Of a stretch of 64,000 nucleotides of DNA, positions 5,578 to 32,899 are shown one piece after another; within the stretch, counting starts at the first letter, position 1, and each line of letters begins with the position of its first letter. The position numbers and the translations under genes were made by a program. The notes beneath the pieces were generated by a model. The model was not told where the DNA came from. It saw nothing but the letters and a program-made list of their open reading frames with translations, and searched no databases. Source of the stretch: Xylanimicrobium pachnodae JCM 13526 = NBRC 107786 (GTDB lineage: Bacteria; Actinomycetota; Actinomycetes; Actinomycetales; Cellulomonadaceae); assembly GCA_001592145.1 (NCBI GenBank), contig BCWJ01000004.1, forward strand, positions 62,001-126,000, written 5' to 3'.

Positions 5578-7794
5578 ATGGTGTCCGCCACTGCCCAGAC
5601 CGCCGCCGTCGTTCTCGCGGCGGGCCACGACGACGTCTCACGTTCCCTGCTGACCCATGCCCTCGGCGACTCGACGGTGGTCCAGGCCGCCGTCGGCTCC
5701 GTGGCCCGGGTGGTGGACCCGGCCCGCATCGTCGTCGTCGTCGCCCCCGGGGACACGGCGGTGCGCGAGGCGCTGGGAGACGGGTACACGTACGTGGAGC
5801 AGGCGGAGCCGCGGGGCACGGGCGACGCCGTGTACGCCGCACGCGGCGCGATCGAGGCGCTCGAGGGCGCCGCCGGCGGCGTCGACCGCGTGCTGGTCAC
5901 GTACGCCGACACCCCGCTGCTGCGCGCCGAGTCGCTGCGCGGCCTGCTGCACCGGTTCACCCTCAAGCGCGCGGACCTCGCGATCCTCACGGCGATCGTG
6001 GGCGACGCCGTGCACGAGTACGACGAGTACGGCGAGGTGGTGCGCGAGGCCACCGACTCGGGCCACGCGCCCATCATCGCGATCCGTGACCACGCCGAGC
6101 GCCGCTCGGCACGCACGGGCCGCACCGAGCTCAACGTGGGCGCCTACGCCGTCGCACCGACCCTGCTCTTCCGCGAGCTGGAGGAGATGGCCGCCGACGG
6201 CGAGTACCGGCTCACCGAGCTGGCCCGCCGCATCATCGGCCGCGGAAAGTCGATCACCTCGTACCAGATCGTGGACACCTCGGAGGTGCGCGGCATCAAC
6301 ACCCCCGACGAGCTGCAGCAGGCCGCCGACATCGTGCTGGCCCGCCTGTTCCGCCCGGTCAAGAACACCGACACCAAGATCGTGTTCGGCACCGGCGGCT
6401 GGCGTGCGCTCATCGGCGAGGGCTACACGCTGGCGAACGTGCGCCGCCTGAGCCAGGCGATCGCCAACGAGGTGACGCGCCGCGGGCTGGAGCGTCAGGG
6501 CGTCGTCATCGGCGGCGACCGCCGCTTCCTGTCTCGCGAGTCGGCCGAGGCCGCGGCCGAGGTGTTCGCCGGCAACAACATCCCCGTCACGCTGCTGCGC
6601 GACGACGTGCCGACCCCGCTGGTCACCTTCGCGGCGCCCTACCTCAAGGCCGCCTACGGCGTCATCATCACCTCGTCGCACAACCCGCCGCAGTGGAACG
6701 GCATGAAGGTGTTCCGCGCCGACGGTTCGCTGCCCCTCGACGACGAGACGGACCGCTACCAGGACGAGGCGAACGAGCTCAACATCTCCGACGTCGTCAC
6801 CCTGGACCTGGAGCGGGCGCGCGAGGCCGGCATCGTGGTGGACGCCGAGCTCGACGAGCCCTACATCGACGCGATCGAGCGCATCGTCGACGTCGAGGCG
6901 GTGCGCGGCTCCGGCCTGCGCGTCATCGTCGACGCCATGTACGGCACGTCGCAGTCCACACTGGGCACGATCCTGACCGACATGCGCGTGCGGGCCGAGT
7001 TCATCCACGCCCAGCACAACCCGCTGTTCGGCGGCATCGCCCCCGCCCCCGACGACGAGCGGCTGCACACCCTCAAGGGGCTCATCCAGTCGGGCAAGGG
7101 CCGCTACTCGCTGGGCATGGCCACCGACGGCGACTCGGACCGCATCGGCATCGTGGACGAGCAGGGCGAGTACGTCGAGGCGAACGACCTCCTGCTGCTC
7201 CTGTACTGGTACCTGCACGAGGTGCGCGGCGAGCGCGGCGGCGTGGTGCGCAACCTGTCCACCACCCACATGCTCGACCGGCTCGCGGCCCACTTCGGCG
7301 AGGAGTCCCGCGAGGTCAAGGTGGGCTTCAAGCACGTCACCGCGGGCATGGAGGAGATCGACGCCGTGCTGGGCGGCGAGTCCTCGGGCGGCCTGACGGT
7401 GCGCGGCTGGCTGCTGGGCAAGGACGGCATCTTCGCGTGCGCCCTGGTGGCCGAGATGCTGGCCCGCACGGGCAAGACGATCTCCGCGCTGCGCCAGGAC
7501 ATCTGGGACATCACGGGGCGCCTGTACATGGCGGACGCCTCCGTCCCCGCCACCCCGGAGATGCGGGTCGAGGTGCCGCGTCGCCTGGCCTCCGAGCCGC
7601 TGACGCACGTGGGCCGCTACGAGGTGGCCTCCGTCTCGCATCTGGACGGCACGAAGATCGTGCTCACGGACGGGAGCTGGGCCCTGCTCCGCTTCTCCGG
7701 CACCGAGCCGCTGCTGCGCATGGTGGCCGAGTCCGACTCCCCCGCCAAGGCGCAGGAGCTGCTCGCGTGGCTCAAGGGCTTCGTGACCGCATGA
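5578..7794 (+). CDS. Fusion: GlmU-like nucleotidyltransferase domain (degenerate) + phosphohexomutase
   Basis: 738 residues with two domains. Residues about 5-260 fold like a sugar-phosphate nucleotidyltransferase (VVLAAG, EPRGTGDAV, TYADTPLL, ELNVGAYAV, INTPDEL). The glycine-rich loop normally reading GxGTRM is replaced by HDDVSRS, and the following catalytic lysine is not found. Residues about 265-738 are a complete alpha-D-phosphohexomutase: phosphoserine loop TSSHNP (S367), metal loop DGDSDR (517-522), sugar loop GESSGG (600-605) and phosphate loop RFSGTEP (705-711). It probably interconverts hexose (or GlcNAc) 1- and 6-phosphates. It lies 76 bp upstream of a GH94 phosphorylase that produces a sugar-1-phosphate, which fits. 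Substrate preference cannot be read from the sequence. Confidence 0.85.
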   Translation: MVSATAQTAAVVLAAGHDDVSRSLLTHALGDSTVVQAAVGSVARVVDPARIVVVVAPGDTAVREALGDGYTYVEQAEPRGTGDAVYAARGAIEALEGAAGGVDRVLVTYADTPLLRAESLRGLLHRFTLKRADLAILTAIVGDAVHEYDEYGEVVREATDSGHAPIIAIRDHAERRSARTGRTELNVGAYAVAPTLLFRELEEMAADGEYRLTELARRIIGRGKSITSYQIVDTSEVRGINTPDELQQAADIVLARLFRPVKNTDTKIVFGTGGWRALIGEGYTLANVRRLSQAIANEVTRRGLERQGVVIGGDRRFLSRESAEAAAEVFAGNNIPVTLLRDDVPTPLVTFAAPYLKAAYGVIITSSHNPPQWNGMKVFRADGSLPLDDETDRYQDEANELNISDVVTLDLERAREAGIVVDAELDEPYIDAIERIVDVEAVRGSGLRVIVDAMYGTSQSTLGTILTDMRVRAEFIHAQHNPLFGGIAPAPDDERLHTLKGLIQSGKGRYSLGMATDGDSDRIGIVDEQGEYVEANDLLLLLYWYLHEVRGERGGVVRNLSTTHMLDRLAAHFGEESREVKVGFKHVTAGMEEIDAVLGGESSGGLTVRGWLLGKDGIFACALVAEMLARTGKTISALRQDIWDITGRLYMADASVPATPEMRVEVPRRLASEPLTHVGRYEVASVSHLDGTKIVLTDGSWALLRFSGTEPLLRMVAESDSPAKAQELLAWLKGFVTA

Positions 7795-7870
7795 CCCCCA
7801 GCACGACCCCATCGAACGACAACTGACACCCCCGCGCACCGAGCGCGCAGACGGCGAAGCGAGATCACGC

Positions 7871-10336
7871 ATGAGGTTTGGCAGGTTTGACGAGGACGCC
7901 CACGAGTACGTGGTGGAGCGTCCGGACGTCCCGGCGTCCTGGACCAACTATCTGGGCGGCAAGGACTTCTGCACGGTCATCGCCCACCATGGCGGCGGCT
8001 ACTCCTACTACAAGTCCGCCCAGAGCGGCCGCATCACCCGGTTCCGCCAGAACGGCGTGCCGCTCGACCGGCCCGGCAAGTACGTGTACGTGCGCGACGC
8101 CGAGGCGAACGGCGGGGCCGGCGACTTCTGGTCGATCTCCTGGCAACCGGTGGGCAAGCCGTTCGTGGGCCCGGACCAGGCCGTCCCGCTCGACGGGACG
8201 GCCGGGCGCTGGACGTCGGCGCACGGCACCGGGTACTCCCGCTTCGAGTCCTCCTACCGGGGCATCGACGCGCGCCAGACCGTGTTCGTCCCGCTCGACG
8301 ACGACGCCGAGGTCTGGGACGTACGCCTGACCAACACCACCGACGTGCCGCGCACGCTCACGGTCACGGGCTACGTCGAGTTCTCGTTCCACACCATCAC
8401 GGTGGACAACCAGAACCTGCAGATGTCGCTGTACTCCCAGGGCGCCGACTACGCCGACGGCGTCATCGAGGTGGACGCGTACTACGAGCCGTGGACGTTC
8501 CACTACTTCACGTCCGCGGGCCCGGGCGGCGCCGCGGCCGACTCGTTCGACGCGCTGCGCGACGCGTTCATCGGCTCCTACCGCGACGAGTCCAACCCGC
8601 TGGCCGTCTCCGTGGGCCAGGGGTCCGGCTCGCAGGGCACCACGCAGAACCACTGCGGCGCCCTGGCGCACCAGGTGACGATCCAGCCGGGCGAGACCGT
8701 GCGGCTGTCGTACGTGCTCGGCTACGGCTCGCGCGCCGCCGCGGGCCTCGCGATGCGTGCCAAGTACGCCGACCCCGCCGTCGTCGACGCCGAGTTCGCG
8801 GCGCTCGTGGACCACTGGCGCGCCAAGCAGGCCAAGCTCGCCGTGACCACCCCGCACGCCGGCATGAACGCCATGCTCAACACCTGGACGCTGCTCCAGG
8901 CCGAGACGTGCGTGGTGTGGTCGCGCTTCGCGTCGTTCGTCGAGGTGGGCGGGCGCACCGGCCTGGGCTACCGCGACACCGCACAGGACTGCATGAGCGT
9001 CATCCACTCCAACCCGACTCGGTCCAAGCAGCGCATCGTGGAGCTGCTGCGCGCCCAGACGGAGGCGGGCTACGGCCTGCACCTGTTCGACCCGGCCGAC
9101 TTCGACCCGGACGCCCCGAAGCTCCCGGACATCCCGTCGCCCACCATCGTGCCCAAGACCGACCGCGCCTCCCTGATCCACGGCCTGGAGGACACCTGCT
9201 CGGACGACCACCTGTGGCTCGTGCCCACCATCGCCGAGTACGTCAAGGAGACGGGCGAGACCGAGTTCCTCGACCAGGAGATCACCTACGCCGAGGGCTC
9301 GACCGGCACGGTGTGGGAGCACCTGGAGCGCGCCCTCGACTTCACGTCCGCCCAGATCGGCGCCAACGGCGTCGCACTCGGCCTGCGCGCCGACTGGAAC
9401 GACGGCATCAACCTGGGCGGCGGCGAGACGGCCCTGGTGACCTTCCTGCACGCATGGGCCATCCGCGCGTACCTGGAGCTGGCCACCGCGCTCGGGCGCA
9501 CGGGCGCCGTCGAGCGCTACGAGGCCGAGCTGGAGCGCCTGGCCGCCGTGGCGGACAAGGAGCTGTGGGACGGGCGCTGGTGGCGCCGCGGCATCACCCG
9601 CGACGGCGTGCTCATCGGCTCGCAGGACAACACCGAGGGCAAGATCTTCCTGGAGCACCAGGCGTGGCCCGTCATCGGCGGCATCACGTCACGCGAGCGC
9701 GGCATCGCGTCCATGGACGCCGTGCACGAGCTGCTGGGGTCCGAGTTCGGCACGCACCTGAACTGGCCGGCGTTCACGCAGGTGGACGACAGCATCGGGT
9801 TCCTCACCCGCGTCTACCCGGGCATCAAGGAGAACGCCGCGATCTTCAGCCACCCCAACGCGTGGCCGATCATCGCCGAGGCCATGCTGGGTCGCGGCAA
9901 CGAGGCCATGGCGTTCTACGACTCGATCCTCCCCTACCACCAGAACGACCAGATCGAGACGCGCGAGGCCGAGCCGTACGCCTACGTGCAGTTCGTCTAC
10001 GGCCGCGATCACGAGCGGTTCGGGCTCGGGCAGAACCCCTGGCTGACCGGGTCCGCGGGCTGGATGTACACGGCCGCCACCAAGTACATCCTGGGCATCC
10101 GCCCCGCCCTCGATGGGCTCATCGTGGACCCGGCGATCCCCGCCGACTGGGACGGCTTCGAGGTGCGCCGCGAGTGGCGCGGCGCCGTCTACGAGATCAC
10201 CGTGCGCAACCCGGAGCACGCACAGAAGGGCGTGCGCTCCCTCGTCGTGGACGGCACCGAGCTCCCCGCCGGGACGACGACGGTGCCGCTCGCCCCCGCC
10301 GGCGCGAGCGTGCGAGTGGAGGTCACGCTGGGCTGA
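7871..10336 (+). CDS. GH94 phosphorylase, probably N,N'-diacetylchitobiose phosphorylase
   Basis: 821-residue cytoplasmic inverting disaccharide phosphorylase (glycoside hydrolase family 94, full length, no signal peptide). From memory of the families it follows Vibrio diacetylchitobiose phosphorylase more closely than Cellulomonas cellobiose phosphorylase. Examples are SRFASFVEVGGRTGLGYRDT (351-370), DTCSDDHLWLVPT (441-453) and YGRDHERFGLGQNPWLTGS near the C-terminus. The catalytic acid region RADWND is at 506-511. The expected reaction is diacetylchitobiose plus phosphate to GlcNAc and GlcNAc-1-phosphate. The preceding mutase fusion could convert the phosphorylated product to GlcNAc-6-phosphate. 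Cellobiose specificity is the main alternative. Confidence 0.85.
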   Translation: MRFGRFDEDAHEYVVERPDVPASWTNYLGGKDFCTVIAHHGGGYSYYKSAQSGRITRFRQNGVPLDRPGKYVYVRDAEANGGAGDFWSISWQPVGKPFVGPDQAVPLDGTAGRWTSAHGTGYSRFESSYRGIDARQTVFVPLDDDAEVWDVRLTNTTDVPRTLTVTGYVEFSFHTITVDNQNLQMSLYSQGADYADGVIEVDAYYEPWTFHYFTSAGPGGAAADSFDALRDAFIGSYRDESNPLAVSVGQGSGSQGTTQNHCGALAHQVTIQPGETVRLSYVLGYGSRAAAGLAMRAKYADPAVVDAEFAALVDHWRAKQAKLAVTTPHAGMNAMLNTWTLLQAETCVVWSRFASFVEVGGRTGLGYRDTAQDCMSVIHSNPTRSKQRIVELLRAQTEAGYGLHLFDPADFDPDAPKLPDIPSPTIVPKTDRASLIHGLEDTCSDDHLWLVPTIAEYVKETGETEFLDQEITYAEGSTGTVWEHLERALDFTSAQIGANGVALGLRADWNDGINLGGGETALVTFLHAWAIRAYLELATALGRTGAVERYEAELERLAAVADKELWDGRWWRRGITRDGVLIGSQDNTEGKIFLEHQAWPVIGGITSRERGIASMDAVHELLGSEFGTHLNWPAFTQVDDSIGFLTRVYPGIKENAAIFSHPNAWPIIAEAMLGRGNEAMAFYDSILPYHQNDQIETREAEPYAYVQFVYGRDHERFGLGQNPWLTGSAGWMYTAATKYILGIRPALDGLIVDPAIPADWDGFEVRREWRGAVYEITVRNPEHAQKGVRSLVVDGTELPAGTTTVPLAPAGASVRVEVTLG

Positions 10337-17705: not shown

Positions 17706-18488
17706 CTACAGGCCCTGCCAGGCCGGCTTCGTGGCGTAGGTCTGGCGGTAGTAGTCGGCGAGCTGGAGCCGACTGGCGGCCGCGTCGTCGATCAGCACGG
17801 TGGCGTGCTGGTGCATCTGCATGATGGTGGCGGGCCACATCGCGGAGACGGGGCCCTCCACGAGCTGGTGCACGGCCTCCGCCTTCTGCTTGCCGGTGGC
17901 GAGCAGCACCAGGTGGCGGGCGCTCATGATGGTGCCCAGGCCCTGCGTGAGACAGTGCACCGGGACCTTGTCGAGGTCGCCGTCGAAGAACCGCGCGTTG
18001 TCCTCGCGGGTCTGCGCGGTCAGGGTCTTGATGCGCGTGCGCGAGGCGAGCGAGGAGCCCGGCTCGTTGAACGCGATATGACCGTCGGTGCCGATGCCGA
18101 GGATCTGGACGTCGACCCCGCCCGCGTCGACGATCGCCTGCTCGTAGCGGACGCAGGCCTCCTCGAGGTCCTCGGCGAGCCCGTCCGGGCCCTGGACCTG
18201 CTCGGGCGCCCAGCCGACGCGCGAGGCGATCTCCTTCTCGATGACGTTGCGGTACCGCTCGGGGTGATCCGCCGGCAGCCCGACGTACTCGTCGAGCATG
18301 AACCCGCGCGCCTGCGCGAACGACAGCCCCTCCTCGGTGTGCCGGCGGGCGAGCTCGTCGTAGACCTTGAGCGGGCTCGAACCGGTGGCCAGGCCGAGGA
18401 CGGCGTCGGGCTTGCGTCGCAGCAGCTTGTCGATGTGGTCGGCGGCGAGGAGTGCGAGCTCCTCAGCCGGTGCGATGACAACTTCCAT
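17706..18488 (-). CDS. nagB: Glucosamine-6-phosphate deaminase
   Basis: Converts glucosamine-6-phosphate to fructose-6-phosphate and ammonia, feeding amino-sugar carbon into glycolysis. 260 residues, normal length. Phosphate-binding loop LATGSSPLKVYDEL; catalytic residues D66 in MLDEYVGL and D135, H137, E142 in GIGTDGHIAFNEPG. AGGAG lies 6 nt before the ATG. It follows the ROK kinase on the same strand after a 107-bp gap with no clear terminator, so it is probably part of the importer operon or has a weak extra promoter. Confidence 0.97.
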   Translation of the reverse strand: MEVVIAPAEELALLAADHIDKLLRRKPDAVLGLATGSSPLKVYDELARRHTEEGLSFAQARGFMLDEYVGLPADHPERYRNVIEKEIASRVGWAPEQVQGPDGLAEDLEEACVRYEQAIVDAGGVDVQILGIGTDGHIAFNEPGSSLASRTRIKTLTAQTREDNARFFDGDLDKVPVHCLTQGLGTIMSARHLVLLATGKQKAEAVHQLVEGPVSAMWPATIMQMHQHATVLIDDAAASRLQLADYYRQTYATKPAWQGL

Positions 18489-18595: not shown

Positions 18596-19612
18596 TCATG
18601 AGGCCTGGGTGAGGGCCGCGTTCCGTGCCAGCACAGCCGCACCGACCGCCGCGACGGGAACGGTGTGGGGCGCCAGGATCACGCGGTCCGCAAGATGAAG
18701 GGAGGCCAGGAACGGGGACTGCCCCGCCTGCCTGGCCAGCGCCGCCTGGACGGCGTCCAGGAGCGGCTGCCCGAGCTGCGACACGCCACCGCCCAGGACC
18801 ACGCGGCGCACGTCGACGCTCAGGGCGAGCATGCGCACACCTGCCGCAACCGCGTCCGCGTAGGCGTCCCGGGCGGCGACCGCCGCGGGGTTCCCCTGCG
18901 CCGCGGCCTCGAAGAGCTCGACCGGTGCGGGGCGGCCCGACGTGGCGGGCCACAACCGCTCGACGGCGGTGCCCGAGGCGTACAGCTCCAGGCAGCCGCG
19001 CTGGCCGCACGGGCACACCGGTCCCGCCGGGTCGATCGGGATGTGCCCGATCTCGCCGGCGGCCCCGCTCCCCCGGCGCACGGCGCCGTCGAGCACGAGA
19101 CCGGCGGCCAGCCCGGTGCCCAGCGCGAGGAACGCCAGGTCGAGGGGCCGGCCGGGCGCATCCGGCGCAAGGTGCGCCGCCCCGAGCGCGGCGATGTTCA
19201 GGTCGTTGTCGAGAACCACGCCGACGCCGAGCTCCGCGCTCAGCCGCCGCGCCAGAGGGAAGGGCGCGGCAATGCCGACGTTGACCGCGTAGCGCACGGT
19301 TCCGTCGTCGTGGCTGACCAGTCCTGGCACCCCGACCCCGACCCCGCCGAGGTCGGCGACGACGACGCCGGCCTCGGCGGCCACCTCACGCACCGCCCGC
19401 GCCGCGACCTCCACGACGGCCTGTGCGCCGCGTTTGGTGTGGAGACGAGCCTGGGCGAGGACGTCCCCGCCGGGGCCGAGCACCGCCGCGAGAGTCTTCG
19501 TCCCGCCGATGTCCAGGCCGACCGTCGGCAGCGGACCGCTCGCCGTGGCGGGCCGGCCGGTGCGGGGCACCTCGCCGCGGGGTCGGTACTCCACAGGCTC
19601 GTCGGCGGCCAC
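18596..19612 (-). CDS. ROK family sugar kinase, probably N-acetylglucosamine/glucose kinase
   Basis: 338-residue ROK kinase. ATP loop GLDIGGTKTLA, catalytic aspartate in VLDNDLNIAALG, sugar-binding EIGHIPID, and the zinc motif CPCGQRGCLE. There is no N-terminal helix-turn-helix, so it is an enzyme, not a repressor. The GTG at 19612 has an AAGG site and starts 5 bp after the permease stop. Position between the sugar importer and nagB suggests phosphorylation of GlcNAc (NagK-like); glucokinase activity is possible. Confidence 0.88.
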   Translation of the reverse strand: MAADEPVEYRPRGEVPRTGRPATASGPLPTVGLDIGGTKTLAAVLGPGGDVLAQARLHTKRGAQAVVEVAARAVREVAAEAGVVVADLGGVGVGVPGLVSHDDGTVRYAVNVGIAAPFPLARRLSAELGVGVVLDNDLNIAALGAAHLAPDAPGRPLDLAFLALGTGLAAGLVLDGAVRRGSGAAGEIGHIPIDPAGPVCPCGQRGCLELYASGTAVERLWPATSGRPAPVELFEAAAQGNPAAVAARDAYADAVAAGVRMLALSVDVRRVVLGGGVSQLGQPLLDAVQAALARQAGQSPFLASLHLADRVILAPHTVPVAAVGAAVLARNAALTQAS

Positions 19613-19616
19613 CGCG

Positions 19617-20522
19617 TCAGCCCTTGACCGCACCGGAGACGAGGCCGCTGGTCATCCGGCCCTGCACGAACAGGAAGAACACGATGACGGGGATGGCGAT
19701 GAGAGTGGACGCCGCCATGACCTGCGCCCAGTCGATGCCGCGGCTCGCCGAGGCCGACATGAAGGTGCGCAGCCACAGCGGCAGCGTCTGCGACGTCTGG
19801 CTGGGCAGGGCGACGAGCGCGACGGTGAACTCGTTCCACGCCTGGAGGAACGCGTAGACCCCGGAGGCGACGAGACCCGGCGCGAGCAGCGGCAGCGTGA
19901 TCCGCATGAACGCCTGGGTCCGTGAGAGCCCGTCCACCATGGCCGCCTCTTCCAGCTCGGCCGGGATCCCCGCGACGAACCCGCGCAGCATCCAGATGGT
20001 GAACGGCACCACCGCCGCCGTATAGATCACGGAGACGCCGATGACGTTGTTCAGCAGGCCGACGCTGGAGAGCATCTTGTACTGCGCGATGAAGAGGCCC
20101 TCGGCGGGAAGCATCTGGATGAACAGGACGGCGAGGATGAACGACTTGCGGCCCTTGAAGCGCCACCGGCTGATGGCGAGCGCTCCGAGGAAGGCGAACA
20201 CGAGCACGAGCACCACGGTCAGCAACGTCACCGAGAGGCTCATGCGCAGCGCCGGCCAGAAGCCGCTGCCGGACTGCAGCAGGTAGTGGAAGTTGGACAG
20301 CGTGCCCCGGGTCGGCAGGAACCGCGGAGTAGTCGATCGGAGCAGCGCGTTGGGCGTGAATGCCGAGAGCACCATCCAGTAGACGGGGAACGCCCAGCAG
20401 ACTGCGACGACGACGGCGAGCAGAGACAGGGCCCACTTGCCGATGCGGCGAGGGGTCAGCACCCGGCGCCGGGGCGCTGCCTGTGATACGTGGGCGTGCG
20501 GGCGGGTCGCGACGGTGGTCAT
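19617..20522 (-). CDS. Carbohydrate ABC transporter permease, MalG type
   Basis: 301-residue inner-membrane permease of the CUT1 family with six predicted helices and the EAA loop EEAAMVDGLSRTQAFMRITLP. Partner of the MalF-type permease, which it overlaps by 4 bp. With the lipoprotein gene it forms an importer resembling the NgcEFG class for GlcNAc or chitobiose. No ATPase gene is in the operon; many actinobacterial CUT1 systems share an MsiK-type ATPase encoded elsewhere. Confidence 0.93.
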   Translation of the reverse strand: MTTVATRPHAHVSQAAPRRRVLTPRRIGKWALSLLAVVVAVCWAFPVYWMVLSAFTPNALLRSTTPRFLPTRGTLSNFHYLLQSGSGFWPALRMSLSVTLLTVVLVLVFAFLGALAISRWRFKGRKSFILAVLFIQMLPAEGLFIAQYKMLSSVGLLNNVIGVSVIYTAAVVPFTIWMLRGFVAGIPAELEEAAMVDGLSRTQAFMRITLPLLAPGLVASGVYAFLQAWNEFTVALVALPSQTSQTLPLWLRTFMSASASRGIDWAQVMAASTLIAIPVIVFFLFVQGRMTSGLVSGAVKG

Positions 20523-21451
20523 GACTCGTCCTCCTTCAGCAGGCTACGGACGTAGGGGGCGGACAGCACGACGGTGAGGAGGAGGACGAAGATCGCGACC
20601 GCCGCCGCACCCCCGAAGTTGTTGCGGTTCATGCCGAGGTCGTAGATGAAGTTTCCGAGCAGGTTGGTCTCGGCGATCGGGGCGCCCGCGTCCTGGAGGA
20701 GCTTGATCTGGGCGAACACCCGCAGGTCCCAGATGATCTGGAGCAGCAGCACGATCGCGAGCACGGGCCGCACGAGCGGCATGATGATCCGCCACAGGAT
20801 CTGGGTCTTGTTGGCACCGTCGATCCGCGCGGCCTCCAGCAGCTCGTCGTTGACCTGGGTGAGGCCCGCGAACAGGGAGAGCGCGACGAACGGCACCGAC
20901 ATCCAGACGATGATGATGGTGGCGACCAGGAAGAAGGAGAGGGGCGTCGCCGTCCACACGTGACCGCGGAACCCGGTCAGGCCCATCTTGACGAGCAGCC
21001 AGTTGATGACGCCGTACTGGTCGTTGAACAGCCAGCGGAAGACGGTGACGGCCGCGATGACCGGGGTGGCCCAGGCCAGCAGCAGCGCGATCTGGAGGAC
21101 CACCTTGGCCCAGCCGTGCACGGCGCGCATGAGGAGCGCGAACGCCAGTCCGAGAATCACGGTCAGACCTGCGTTGACCAGGCAGAAGATGATCGAGCGG
21201 ACGACCACGGCGAACGCCGTCGAGTCGGAGAAGATGCGGGCGTAGTTGTCCAGGCCGGCGAACGTCGGCGGCGCGCTGCCGAACTGCTGCGCGAGGCCGA
21301 ACTCCTGGAACGAGGTGACGATCTGCCAGTAGACGGGGTAGCCGAGCCCGAGAAGCAGGACGGCGACAGCGGGGATCAGCAGGAGATATGGGGCGGCCGG
21401 CTTGCGGCGCTGCCGCACCTCCTGCGTGCCGTGCGCGGTGATGGTGGCCAT
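20519..21451 (-). CDS. Carbohydrate ABC transporter permease, MalF type
   Basis: 310-residue CUT1 permease with six to seven hydrophobic segments and the EAA loop LLEAARIDGANKTQILWRIIMP. The ATG at 21451 has AAAGGAG 8 nt upstream; an upstream in-frame extension is not supported. It lies 80 bp after the solute-binding lipoprotein gene and overlaps the second permease. Confidence 0.93.
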   Translation of the reverse strand: MATITAHGTQEVRQRRKPAAPYLLLIPAVAVLLLGLGYPVYWQIVTSFQEFGLAQQFGSAPPTFAGLDNYARIFSDSTAFAVVVRSIIFCLVNAGLTVILGLAFALLMRAVHGWAKVVLQIALLLAWATPVIAAVTVFRWLFNDQYGVINWLLVKMGLTGFRGHVWTATPLSFFLVATIIIVWMSVPFVALSLFAGLTQVNDELLEAARIDGANKTQILWRIIMPLVRPVLAIVLLLQIIWDLRVFAQIKLLQDAGAPIAETNLLGNFIYDLGMNRNNFGGAAAVAIFVLLLTVVLSAPYVRSLLKEDES

Positions 21452-21531
21452 GTGGGGGGCTCCTTTGCGGTCCGGCCGGGTGGTGCGCCGGGGTGCGGGG
21501 CGGGGTCGCCGCCCCGCACCCCGGGCGGGGG

Positions 21532-22872
21532 TCACTTGCCGTTCAGCATGGGGGTGATCTTGGCGTCGTACTCCTTGGCGAGCGCCGTCACGTCACCGCC
21601 CTCGGCGATCTTCTGGAAGAGCTCCTCGTAGACGTTCGCGCCCTCGACGGCGGCCCAGCCCGGCGCGGCCGGCGTGAGCTTCGAGTTCTGCGCGGTCTCG
21701 ATCATCGTGGTGGCGAACTTGTCGTCACCCAGCGAGGACACGTACTCCGAGTTGGCCGGGCCGAGGCCCGCACCACCGAGCATCTTCTGGTACTCCGGCG
21801 AGAAGATGATGCGCATCAGGTTCTCGGCGAGCTGGGGGTGCTGCGAGTTGGCCGAGATGGCGATGTTCGAGCCACCGGCGAACACGGGGGCGACGCCGCC
21901 GTCCACGCCCGGCAGGGCGAAGATGTCGAACTTGGTGTCGTCGGCCATCCCGTCACGGACGGTCTTGCCCTCGTCGTTGGTCGTCAGGTCACCGATCGAC
22001 CAGCGGGCCCACGCCGGAGCCATGATGGTCGCGCCGGTGGCCGGCGAGCCGTCCTCCCCGTCGTTGATGAAGTCCCAGTACGCGTCGTCCTTGGCCGTGG
22101 TAGGCAGGTTCGAGGCGCCCTTGAACATGTCCTGCCACTGCTCGAGGCCCTTGATGGTGTTGGGGTCCGACAGCGTGGAGGTCCACTCGGTGCCGTCGAC
22201 GGTGGCGAGCTCGCCACCGTTGGCAAACACCCAGGAGATGCCGTTGCGCCAGTCCTGGCCGCCGATGGCGAACCCGGACAGGTCGTCCGTGCGCAGCTTC
22301 TTGACGTCGTCGACGAAGTCGGCGAGCGTCTTCGGGGTCTCGGTGATGCCGGCCGCGGTCCACAGGTCCTTGCGGTAGAACATGTAGCGCGAGCCGAAGT
22401 AGTACGGCATGGCGTAGTGCTTGCCGTCGAAGTCGCCCGCGGCGACGAACGACTGGAGCAGGTTGTCGCCGCCGAGCTCCTCGAAGAAGTCCGGCGTGAT
22501 CTCACGGAACGCACCCACGGCGGTGAACGTCGGGGCCTGCGTGTTGCCGATCTCGACGACGTCGGGCGAGTTGGCCTTGTCGGCCAGCGCCGTGGTGAGC
22601 TTCGGGACCAGGTCGGTCCACGACTGCTCCTCGATCGTGAGCGTCGAGCCCGGGTTCTCCTTGGCGAAGGTGTCGACCAGGTACTGACGCAGGTCGTCGG
22701 GCGTGTCGGCGCCGTTGAGCCAGAGCGTGATGTTCCCGGCCTCAGCCGCGCCGGTGTCGTTCGGCTCGGGCGACGAGGCGTCGCCCGTCCCTGAGCCACC
22801 GCACGCGGTCAGCGCAAGCGCCAGGGTGATGGTCGAGGCCACGGTGGTGGCAACGAGGCGGTTCCTCTTCAC
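21532..22872 (-). CDS. Sugar ABC transporter substrate-binding lipoprotein
   Basis: 446-residue extracellular CUT1 binding protein. Signal peptide with lipobox LTAC (lipidated C24), then a low-complexity linker and the type I binding fold beginning ITLWLNGADTPDDLRQYLVD. GTG start with AGGAAG about 7 nt upstream. First gene of the importer-kinase-nagB operon and transcribed from the gap after the ROK repressor gene. Substrate probably GlcNAc or short chito-oligosaccharides, inferred from nagB, GH20 and the ROK genes; not shown by sequence alone. Confidence 0.92.
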   Translation of the reverse strand: MKRNRLVATTVASTITLALALTACGGSGTGDASSPEPNDTGAAEAGNITLWLNGADTPDDLRQYLVDTFAKENPGSTLTIEEQSWTDLVPKLTTALADKANSPDVVEIGNTQAPTFTAVGAFREITPDFFEELGGDNLLQSFVAAGDFDGKHYAMPYYFGSRYMFYRKDLWTAAGITETPKTLADFVDDVKKLRTDDLSGFAIGGQDWRNGISWVFANGGELATVDGTEWTSTLSDPNTIKGLEQWQDMFKGASNLPTTAKDDAYWDFINDGEDGSPATGATIMAPAWARWSIGDLTTNDEGKTVRDGMADDTKFDIFALPGVDGGVAPVFAGGSNIAISANSQHPQLAENLMRIIFSPEYQKMLGGAGLGPANSEYVSSLGDDKFATTMIETAQNSKLTPAAPGWAAVEGANVYEELFQKIAEGGDVTALAKEYDAKITPMLNGK

Positions 22873-22987: not shown

Positions 22988-24142
22988 TCAGGACACCCCC
23001 AACTGGGCGCCCAGGACGAGGACGGCTGCTCCGGCGAGGACCACGTCCTCGTCCAGGGTCGCCATCCGCAGTCGGAGTCCCGCACTGACGGCGGGCATCG
23101 TTCGCTCGGCGACGGTGGTCTGTGCTGCGTCACGCAGCGAGCCGTCCAGCAGGTCGGCGGGGCCGGACAGCAGCACCTCGCCGAGGTTCAGGGCCGAGAT
23201 CACCGGCGCGAGCGTGATCCCGAGGATGCGGCCGACGTGCGCGAGCGCGGCGTCGGCGGCGTCGCGGTCGAGGCCTTCGATGCGGCGGCGCAGCGCGGGC
23301 GCGGAGAGCACGGTCTCCAGGCAGCCGCGGCGGCCACAGGCGCAGAGCTCGCCGTCGTCGACGACGGTGACGTGCCCGAGCTCACCGGCCGCGCTGTTCG
23401 CGCCCCAGACGCGCGACCCGTCGACCACGAGGCCGGCGCCGACGCCCTGACCGACCGTGACCACGAGCATCGAGTCGCCGCCGCCGCCGAAGGTGTACTC
23501 CCCCAGCGCGGCGACGTCGGCGTCGTTGGCGACCTGGACGGGCAGGCCCAGGTGGTCCGTGAGCAGGCTCGCCAGCGGCAGGTCGGTCCACTTTCGGTTG
23601 GGTGCCTCGTGGACGCGGCCGGACTCGTCGATGACGCCGGGGGCGCCGATGCCGACGCCGATGACCGGCTGCGTGGCCGACGCGATGAGCCGGCGCGCGA
23701 AGCGTTCGATGAGGGAGACCAGCTCGTCGCCCGAGCGGTCGTGGACCGACAGCGAGCGCCGCACCACGGCCTCTCCCGTGAGTGTCAGGACGGCGCCGCG
23801 CATCACGGTGTCGTCCGAGAGGTCGACGGTGACGATCTGGTACGCGTCCGTGCGCATCCCGACGAGGATCGCCGGCTTGCCGACGCCGCGACCACGCTGC
23901 ACGCCGAGCTCCTCGACCAGCCCCTCGGCCAGCAGGCCGTTGATGAGGTCGGAGACGGTGACGCGGGTCAGCGACGTGGCGCGGGCCAGGTCGGCGCGAG
24001 ACGTGGGGCCCTCGTGGAAGAGGTGCTGGAGCACGAGGGCACGGTTGTGCGCTCTGGTGTGCTCCGGAAGCACCTTTGCCGTGGCGCGAAGACCGGACCC
24101 GAGGGTCCGCCTCGAGGCGCCCGCGCTGGTTGTCGAGGACAT
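22988..24142 (-). CDS. ROK family transcriptional repressor (NagC/XylR-like)
   Basis: 384 residues: winged helix-turn-helix at about 30-85 (HNRALVLQHLF, SRADLARATSLTRVTVSDLI, GLLAEGLVEELG) followed by a ROK sugar-binding domain with VGIGAPGVID, NDADVAALGEY, the EXGH-type AGELGHVTV and the zinc motif CACGRRGCLE. It probably senses a sugar or sugar phosphate and represses the importer operon directly downstream and perhaps the divergent hydrolase genes at 24384. It may repress itself through the repeat at 24147. Confidence 0.92.
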   Translation of the reverse strand: MSSTTSAGASRRTLGSGLRATAKVLPEHTRAHNRALVLQHLFHEGPTSRADLARATSLTRVTVSDLINGLLAEGLVEELGVQRGRGVGKPAILVGMRTDAYQIVTVDLSDDTVMRGAVLTLTGEAVVRRSLSVHDRSGDELVSLIERFARRLIASATQPVIGVGIGAPGVIDESGRVHEAPNRKWTDLPLASLLTDHLGLPVQVANDADVAALGEYTFGGGGDSMLVVTVGQGVGAGLVVDGSRVWGANSAAGELGHVTVVDDGELCACGRRGCLETVLSAPALRRRIEGLDRDAADAALAHVGRILGITLAPVISALNLGEVLLSGPADLLDGSLRDAAQTTVAERTMPAVSAGLRLRMATLDEDVVLAGAAVLVLGAQLGVS

Positions 24143-32530: not shown

Positions 32531-32899
32531 TGGTGGAGCTGCAGGGAATCGAACCCTGGTCCGGTGACGCTTTTCCAGGACTTCTCCGGGCGCAGTCTGC
32601 TACGGCTTTTCTCGGCCCCCGCGCTGGCGCAGACTCCTTCGCGGACGGGCTCAGTCGCCTTGGGTGTCCCGCTGACCTAAGCGACCCAGGTCAGCGGCTG
32701 AGCTCTCTAGATGACGCGAGCTACCGGGTCGAGAGCGATCCCGGGCTCACGGACTTCGAAGCTCGCTCAGGCGGCGAGGGCGAAGTCGTTGCGCGTGTTA
32801 TCGGCAACTATAGGTTCGCAGGCATCGTTAACGAGATAAGCCTGCGTTCTCGGCCCGCTTCTCCTCGAAGCACGACCACCGTCGAAACCGATCAGCCCC
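32531..32899 (-). ncRNA. ssrA: Transfer-messenger RNA (tmRNA, ssrA)
   Basis: 369-nt tmRNA that rescues stalled ribosomes with SmpB. The 5' end GGGGCTGATCGGTTTCGAC and the 3' end ending in AGCTCCACCA pair as a tRNA-like acceptor stem, with CCA encoded; the T-arm GGTTCGATTCC is present. The tag reading frame, 32805 down to 32767, encodes ADNTRNDFALAA and a TGA stop, a typical actinobacterial proteolysis tag ending in ALAA. The open frames crossing this region are not genes. smpB lies just upstream on the same strand. Confidence 0.97.

Follow-up and report, generated by a model that had tools for sequence, protein, structure and literature searches.

We analysed a stretch of 64,000 nucleotides from Xylanimicrobium pachnodae JCM 13526 = NBRC 107786 (contig BCWJ01000004.1, positions 62,001 to 126,000; hereafter the window). 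A gene on its forward strand (5578..7794, ATG at 5578, stop at 7794) encodes a 738-residue fusion of a GlmU-type pseudo-nucleotidyltransferase domain with a phosphohexomutase. We favour, with moderate confidence, the reading that the protein is an N-acetylglucosamine-1-phosphate (GlcNAc-1-P) mutase fed by the N,N'-diacetylchitobiose phosphorylase (ChBP) encoded next to it, and that its GlmU domain is dead as an enzyme and serves as a regulatory domain that binds uridine diphosphate N-acetylglucosamine (UDP-GlcNAc). The argument starts from what the sequences display: the fusion itself, its pairing with ChBP, the clade of its mutase, the loss of a catalytic loop, the retention of a ligand pocket, and purifying selection.

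The fusion has the form that an earlier note on this DNA had described, a GlmU-like domain joined to a complete phosphohexomutase directly upstream of a GH94 gene; Pfam and a gap of 76 nt between the two genes bear this out. The N-terminal domain (residues 1-260; 5578..6357) was recognised from its predicted fold and from its sequence, which resembles GlmU N-terminal domains with a best E value of 1.1e-13. Pfam places NTP_transf_3 at residues 27-208, and the GlmU models of NCBIfam cover residues 4-266 with scores under their cut-offs. A hexapeptide domain was absent from the fusion in the Pfam scan, so the protein is without the C-terminal left-handed beta-helix acetyltransferase of GlmU. The mutase part (residues 267-738; 6376..7791) is complete by Pfam and by fold match; PGM_PMM I, II, III and IV span residues 268-729, all four above their gathering scores. 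The phosphoserine loop (TSSHNP in the window protein, residues 365-370; 6670..6687) is present in all 66 fusions compared below, the metal loop DGDxDR in 65 and the phosphate loop SGTEP in 64, and the window protein has all three. Judged by these domains and loops, the fusion is a member of the alpha-D-phosphohexomutase superfamily.

A fold search with the model of the whole protein listed matches to mutases only, because one domain fills the list, and the N-terminal domain was then folded separately. The model of this domain, predicted from 18 sequences (mean predicted local distance difference test score, pLDDT, 87; predicted template modelling score, pTM, 0.88), has the fold of GlmU, with 4aaw as best match (Z 30.0, root-mean-square deviation 2.3, 240 residues aligned). 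The top 32 rows of a second structural alignment were all GlmU entries. The C-terminal part of the predicted model fits solved mutases (1tuo; Z 42.7, root-mean-square deviation 2.4, 429 aligned). The closest named relative among the genomes compared comes from a Promicromonosporaceae metagenome genome (L079), where the fusion is 85% and the ChBP 87% identical.

The downstream gene (7871..10336, forward strand) encodes a GH94 protein of 821 residues that Pfam and comparison with solved structures assign to the ChBP type. It has a GH94 catalytic domain (520 bits) and a supersandwich domain. Its best solved relative is the ChBP of V. proteolyticus (1v7v, 958 bits); it scores 492 bits against a further N,N'-diacetylchitobiose phosphorylase (8bou), and 442 bits or less against cellobiose phosphorylases. 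The likeness to diacetylchitobiose phosphorylase noted earlier was thus confirmed, and an identity as cellobiose phosphorylase was rejected. Residue D511, invariant in 10/10 sequences, corresponds in the alignment to V. proteolyticus Asp492, which we take to be the general acid.

We found that the pairing of fusion and ChBP goes beyond chance. When 149 genomes drawn evenly from the order were searched with the window fusion at E <= 1e-80, 12 gave a match, and a check of domains resolved these into 10 fusions and 2 stand-alone mutases. The window GH94 protein matched 22 of the 149, exceeding 900 bits in 10. These 10 were the 10 fusion carriers, and the two genes were adjacent every time. Among 346 genomes of the phylum, the fusion was found in the window genome only, and the other 22 hits covered the mutase part only.

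A scan for ChBP, of which we took the best 80 of at least 573 loci and which is not a census, placed the fusion more widely. The locus carried the fusion in 23 cases, an actinobacterial-type fragment of it at a contig edge in one (L080), a stand-alone mutase in 41 and neither in 15. Named carriers among these 80 were Oerskovia, Cellulosimicrobium, Paraoerskovia, Sediminihabitans, Sanguibacter and Actinotalea, along with metagenome genomes of Propionibacteriaceae and Bifidobacteriaceae. Outside the actinobacteria they were one of the Chloroflexota (L093), Rhizomicrobium electricum (L114) and a related alphaproteobacterial genome (L113). One carrier labelled Sphaerisporangium cinnabarinum ATCC 31213 (L085) has a fusion that shares 98-99% identity with its counterpart in Cellulosimicrobium funkei, and its genome is probably mislabelled or mixed. 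The 41 stand-alone mutases, mostly in Clostridia, lay within about 0.5 kb of ChBP in 38 cases and 4-7 kb away in L130, L154 and L158; that of L151 is partial. Rhizomicrobium is the only carrier among 190 genomes of its class. When 398 Pseudomonadota genomes were searched for ChBP, 10 had a match: the fusion-bearing genome of Rhizomicrobium (G484) and nine others, in all nine of which a stand-alone mutase with the sugar-specificity loop GGESSGG directly follows ChBP. We call these nine Vibrio-type, since the ChBP of L271 begins almost exactly as that of V. proteolyticus does.

These stand-alone mutases are the kin of the fusion. A careful tree was built from 50 rows of mutases. One of its branches (100/100) separates 21 fusions from all other rows, and a single clade (100/100) unites the fusions with the ChBP-linked mutases of clostridial and Vibrio type and excludes 9 general mutases. 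A quick tree, with 106 rows, agreed. The quick tree held 16 and the careful tree 8 of the 41 stand-alone loci, and both show kinship rather than frequency, because stand-alone ChBP rows were chosen for lying by ChBP. The loop GGESSGG, at residues 599-605 of the window protein (7372..7392), marks this ChBP-partner clade: it was found in 65/66 fusions, 16/16 clostridial-type rows and 9/9 Vibrio-type rows. Among 20 other stand-alone rows, in which one gene appears twice (as L198 and as L183), 15 have GGEESGG and 3 have GGESSGG; from the tree, the three appear to be L071, L072 and L197, which lie inside the clade and have no adjacent ChBP. In the genome of L197 ChBP lies at another locus, and the genomes of L071 and L072 gave no GH94 hit. 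In the latter two (L071:6478-11407, L072:7295-12340) a ROK regulator, the stand-alone clade mutase, a separate nucleotidyltransferase and a galactokinase-like kinase stand in a row. The nucleotidyltransferase loop there looks intact (GLGSRM/GLGTRM; Pfam was run on L072), and these rows are perhaps an unfused version of the same idea.

By clade and sugar loop, the fusion mutase is of the ChBP-partner type, that of VC0611. In V. cholerae the ChBP and mutase pair is VC0612/VC0611, and the relevant passages of PMC5209532 name VC0611 a GlcNAc-1-phosphate mutase; those of PMC4505101 give the same route as a prediction. Because the fusion shares its clade and GGESSGG with ChBP-adjacent mutases, and the V. 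cholerae gene is so named, the fusion likely converts GlcNAc-1-P to GlcNAc-6-P. Gene clusters in two relatives are laid out for this route. In Rhizomicrobium the order is GntR, a SIS/NagB-II-like protein (344.7 of 430, under the NCBIfam cut-off), NagA (above the TIGR00221 cut-off), GH18, a major facilitator superfamily transporter, the fusion and ChBP. A Propionibacteriaceae cluster (L099) holds NagA (just under cut-off, 224.7 vs 225.65) and NagB, and a ROK regulator, a solute-binding protein, permeases, a ROK kinase, the fusion and ChBP.

We next consider the N-terminal domain, for which 66 fusions from three phyla were aligned to the GlmU encoded in the window's genome; residue numbers are those of E. 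coli GlmU. The set of 66 includes near-copies, L084 and L085 among them. Left out were L106 (from the genome of L068), L082 (from the record of L062), L097 (broken frame), L080, the newly found L159, three copies already counted under other handles (L160, L162 and L163 as L093, L114 and L113) and one whose two parts lie on separate contigs (L225, L226). The LAAGxGTR loop was present in none of the 66. In the window protein the degenerate loop (residues 13-26; 5614..5655) reads LAAGHDDVSRSLLT, where the genome's own GlmU has LAAGQGTRMKSSRPK. At the aligned positions, Arg18 is kept in 6/66, Lys25 in 2/66, both in 1/66, Gly16 in 10/66 and Thr17 in 4/66.

The pocket positions fared otherwise. Gln76 and Gly81, presumably on the uracil side, and Asp105 and Asn227, which we take to be the metal ligands, are kept in 66/66, Ala13 in 63/66, Thr82 and Asn169 in 62/66, Gly140 in 61/66 and Glu154 in 58/66. 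In the part of PMC8386105 that deals with MtGlmU, the contacts to UDP-GlcNAc and pyrophosphate are Ala14, Gly17, Thr18, Gln83, Gly88, Thr89, Gly151, Glu166, Asn181, Lys26 and Arg19. Conservation in at least 58 of 66 fusions, a mark chosen after the counts were seen, holds for 9/9 positions on the UDP-GlcNAc or metal side vs 18/215 other core columns (p 1.4e-9). At the level of sequence the pyrophosphate side is lost while the UDP-GlcNAc side is kept, and this split follows the chemistry. Ratios of nonsynonymous to synonymous substitution rates (dN/dS) were obtained from 16 pairs, of which 2 were saturated and excluded. In the 14 usable pairs they were 0.034-0.385 for the N-terminal domain, which indicates purifying selection, and 0.023-0.228 for the mutase part. 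The domain thus seems to be a pseudo-uridyltransferase that has lost catalysis; its probable role is to bind UDP-GlcNAc and to gate the mutase.

Several observations weigh against this reading of the domain and of its ChBP-fed mutase. The N-terminal domain evolves faster than the mutase, with the larger dN/dS in 12 of the 14 pairs. In L068, L069, L070 and L101, the named ones of which are Bifidobacteriaceae metagenome genomes, the sugar side has lost about 45 residues, and such a loss is hard to square with UDP-GlcNAc sensing in those four copies. An arginine six residues past the Gly of LAAG (Arg22) is invariant in ten actinobacterial fusions and might stand in for Arg18. The placement of the two halves is weak in the full model (pTM 0.61, linker pLDDT below 50).

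The rapid divergence, and the persistence of the fusion in the four copies without the sugar-side part, would fit a domain that is merely structural, acting in dimerisation, stability or docking to ChBP, and joined to an unregulated GlcNAc-1-P mutase. We regard this as a serious contender, though an unlikely one, because a scaffold would have no reason to keep the nine ligand-side and metal-side positions at 58-66 of 66 (a post-hoc threshold). Alternatively, the domain could capture GlcNAc-1-P and channel it to the mutase site, with no sensing of UDP-GlcNAc. The product of ChBP is a sugar-1-phosphate and most sequences retain the sugar-side residues, as such a pocket would require; however, Gln76 and Gly81, kept in 66/66 and presumably on the uracil side, would be superfluous in a pocket for GlcNAc-1-P alone, and we consider this alternative distinctly improbable.

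The remaining points against a ChBP-fed mutase concern lineages in which fusion and ChBP are found apart. In 201 Chloroflexota genomes, 4 hits covered both domains and 3 of these adjoined ChBP; the fourth genome, G826, has the fusion and gave no GH94 hit. With the G826 protein as query, its class (199 genomes) yielded 32 copies of the fusion in 31 genomes, and in the fetched flanks only two copies (L195 and L249) adjoin ChBP, with short contigs (for example L228, L232, L243, L248 and L256) unable to show all neighbours. The linkage to GH94 that the earlier note looked for in homologues therefore holds for every carrier in the order sample and is slight in this class. A strict linkage everywhere is ruled out by these data, and ChBP is not the sole source of substrate for the fusion mutase. 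Conversely, ChBP occurs without a close clade mutase in L092 and in 9 spirochaete genomes that were searched, where the best mutase match has 34% identity. The 15 loci of the best 80 without a mutase comprise L083, L092, L096, L152 and 11 spirochaete loci; the genome of L083 has a fusion elsewhere and that of L096 a clade mutase elsewhere. Treponema-type genomes with ChBP and no close clade mutase are those of L107, L117, L120, L122, L125, L133, L149 and L156.

The neighbours of the Chloroflexota fusions include, at some loci, NagA, SIS-domain proteins, the exo-muramidase NamZ, GH20, a galactokinase-type kinase and a NAGPA-domain protein. Such an amino-sugar gene or ChBP was found at 12 of 37 fusion loci vs 0 of 21 general-mutase loci (p 0.002; 10/37 vs 0/21, p 0.007, when ChBP is not counted), in a comparison that favours the fusion cases, the neighbour queries having been taken from fusion loci after these were read. 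None of these genes was found at 25 of the 37. One cluster (L229:2-10028) has a SIS protein, NamZ, a galactokinase-type kinase, a NAGPA-domain protein, NagA and the fusion, and looks like a set for salvage of cell-wall amino sugars.

That most Chloroflexota copies lie away from ChBP, and that NCBIfam matches fall under the cut-off for every mutase type, could mean that the protein is a general phosphoglucomutase/phosphomannomutase which lies beside ChBP by happenstance. We think this less probable still than capture of GlcNAc-1-P: the clade and GGESSGG set the fusion apart from the other stand-alone mutases, most of which have GGEESGG; the amino-sugar neighbours, with the bias just given, speak against it; and so does the constant adjacency to ChBP in the order sample. 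On this evidence the fusions seem to be amino-sugar-1-phosphate mutases, fed by ChBP in some lineages; in others they are perhaps fed by other routes to sugar-1-phosphates, which is conjecture.

The earlier note had proposed that the fusion takes GlcNAc-1-P to GlcNAc-6-P or in part toward UDP-GlcNAc. The first part stands as likely, given the ChBP-type GH94, the mutase clade and the NagA/NagB-type genes of the two relatives; the second we reject, since the loop is absent from all 66 fusions and Arg18 and Lys25 are mostly lost, which makes synthesis of UDP-GlcNAc by the fusion unlikely. A truly bifunctional enzyme diverting part of its GlcNAc-1-P would account for the fold, for the residues equivalent to Asp105 and Asn227 and for the UDP-GlcNAc contacts, most of which are kept, but with no GTR loop in any fusion, Lys25 in so few and a separate, intact-loop GlmU encoded in the source genome, it is very improbable.

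Our preferred reading, a ChBP-fed mutase under a UDP-GlcNAc-binding regulatory domain, would work as follows. Using phosphate, ChBP would split N,N'-diacetylchitobiose taken up by the cell into GlcNAc-1-P and GlcNAc; phosphorolysis saves one ATP compared with hydrolysis. The C-terminal mutase would turn GlcNAc-1-P into GlcNAc-6-P, which would enter NagA/NagB catabolism as laid out in the Rhizomicrobium and Propionibacteriaceae clusters. GlcNAc-1-P can be burned or turned directly into the wall precursor UDP-GlcNAc; therefore a mutase that reads UDP-GlcNAc could hold back catabolism when the precursor is short. The dead uridyltransferase domain, with its retained pocket, may be the ligand-binding regulator that sets the mutase rate. 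Substrate, ligand and regulation are what we infer here, as is the direction, activation at high UDP-GlcNAc being the metabolically sensible one. More tentatively, and with clearly less confidence, we propose that the whole widespread family of pseudo-uridyltransferase/mutase fusions could be a UDP-GlcNAc-gated valve between catabolism and wall synthesis, built once, probably in a Chloroflexota-like lineage, and later partnered with ChBP in actinobacteria and an alphaproteobacterial lineage.

The surroundings in the window offer candidate partners. About 7 kb downstream, on the opposite strand, lies a cluster with NagB, glucosamine-6-phosphate deaminase (17706..18488, over the NCBIfam cut-off), likely a downstream step; a ROK-family sugar kinase (18596..19612; Pfam, NCBIfam), which could phosphorylate the GlcNAc released as the second half of chitobiose; a carbohydrate ATP-binding cassette transporter of two permeases and a solute-binding protein (19617..22872), which may import chitobiose or GlcNAc; and a ROK-family transcription regulator of this cluster (22988..24034). 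A NagA candidate elsewhere in the genome scores 209 bits, under the cut-off of 225.65. The gene next after GH94 encodes nicotinate phosphoribosyltransferase, and the small opposite-strand genes just upstream of the fusion presumably correspond to clpS and DUF2017, judging by gene order. The 206-bp region upstream of the fusion holds no DasR-like site at up to 3 mismatches, and its repeats yielded no lead; the same scan gave 44 hits vs a shuffle mean of 13.8. A transfer-messenger RNA gene with the tag ADNTRNDFALAA lies at 32531-32899 on the reverse strand.

Several known systems share parts of this arrangement. In the Vibrio (GlcNAc)2 operon (VC0612 and VC0611), as at the fusion locus, ChBP adjoins a mutase of the same clade with the same sugar loop (9/9 Vibrio-type loci); unlike the fusion, that mutase is a stand-alone protein of 470-485 residues, lies downstream of ChBP and has no GlmU-type domain. 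The earlier note knew of no described fusion of this kind, and we found no description of one in an open-licence library, which omits most subscription journals. The main text of a review (PMC8950772) has no word beginning mutase, fusion or fused. The unfused pair of ChBP and GlcNAc-1-P mutase is described in Vibrio (PMC5209532). What appears new is a ChBP-partner mutase bearing a seemingly dead UDP-GlcNAc pyrophosphorylase domain. The uridyltransferase domain of GlmU has in common with the N-terminal domain its predicted fold and the UDP-GlcNAc and metal positions; the fusion has lost the signature loop with Arg18 and Lys25, and has a mutase in place of the acetyltransferase.

Bifunctional nucleotidyltransferase/phosphomannomutase fusions of 844-851 residues have the same domain order. 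Their loop is intact (GEGTRL/GEGSRL), and the mutase part of the three that we read is 22-24% identical to the window fusion, which lacks the loop, and we do not count it among them. By their annotation, these fusions would act on mannose rather than GlcNAc. In other actinobacterial groups (L075, L077, L078) a general mutase adjoins such an intact-loop fusion.

Regulation by nucleotide-sugar binding is known in other proteins. According to the portion of PMC13046274 that treats it, GlmR/YvcK of Bacillus binds UDP-GlcNAc and regulates the amino-sugar pathway, and its reported target is GlmS; it is another protein, likened to the N-terminal domain for the proposed binding of UDP-GlcNAc. GMPPA, according to excerpts of PMC11228364, is non-catalytic, binds GDP-mannose and regulates GMPPB. 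Like the proposed domain, it is a dead nucleotidyltransferase kept as a nucleotide-sugar-binding regulator; unlike the fusion, it is a separate eukaryotic subunit acting on another pyrophosphorylase, with no fused mutase. If our reading is right, a dead pyrophosphorylase on a branch-point mutase would couple the use of chitin directly to the demand of the wall, and bacteria would have a nucleotide-sugar pseudoenzyme that acts as a sensor, as is reported for GMPPA in animals.

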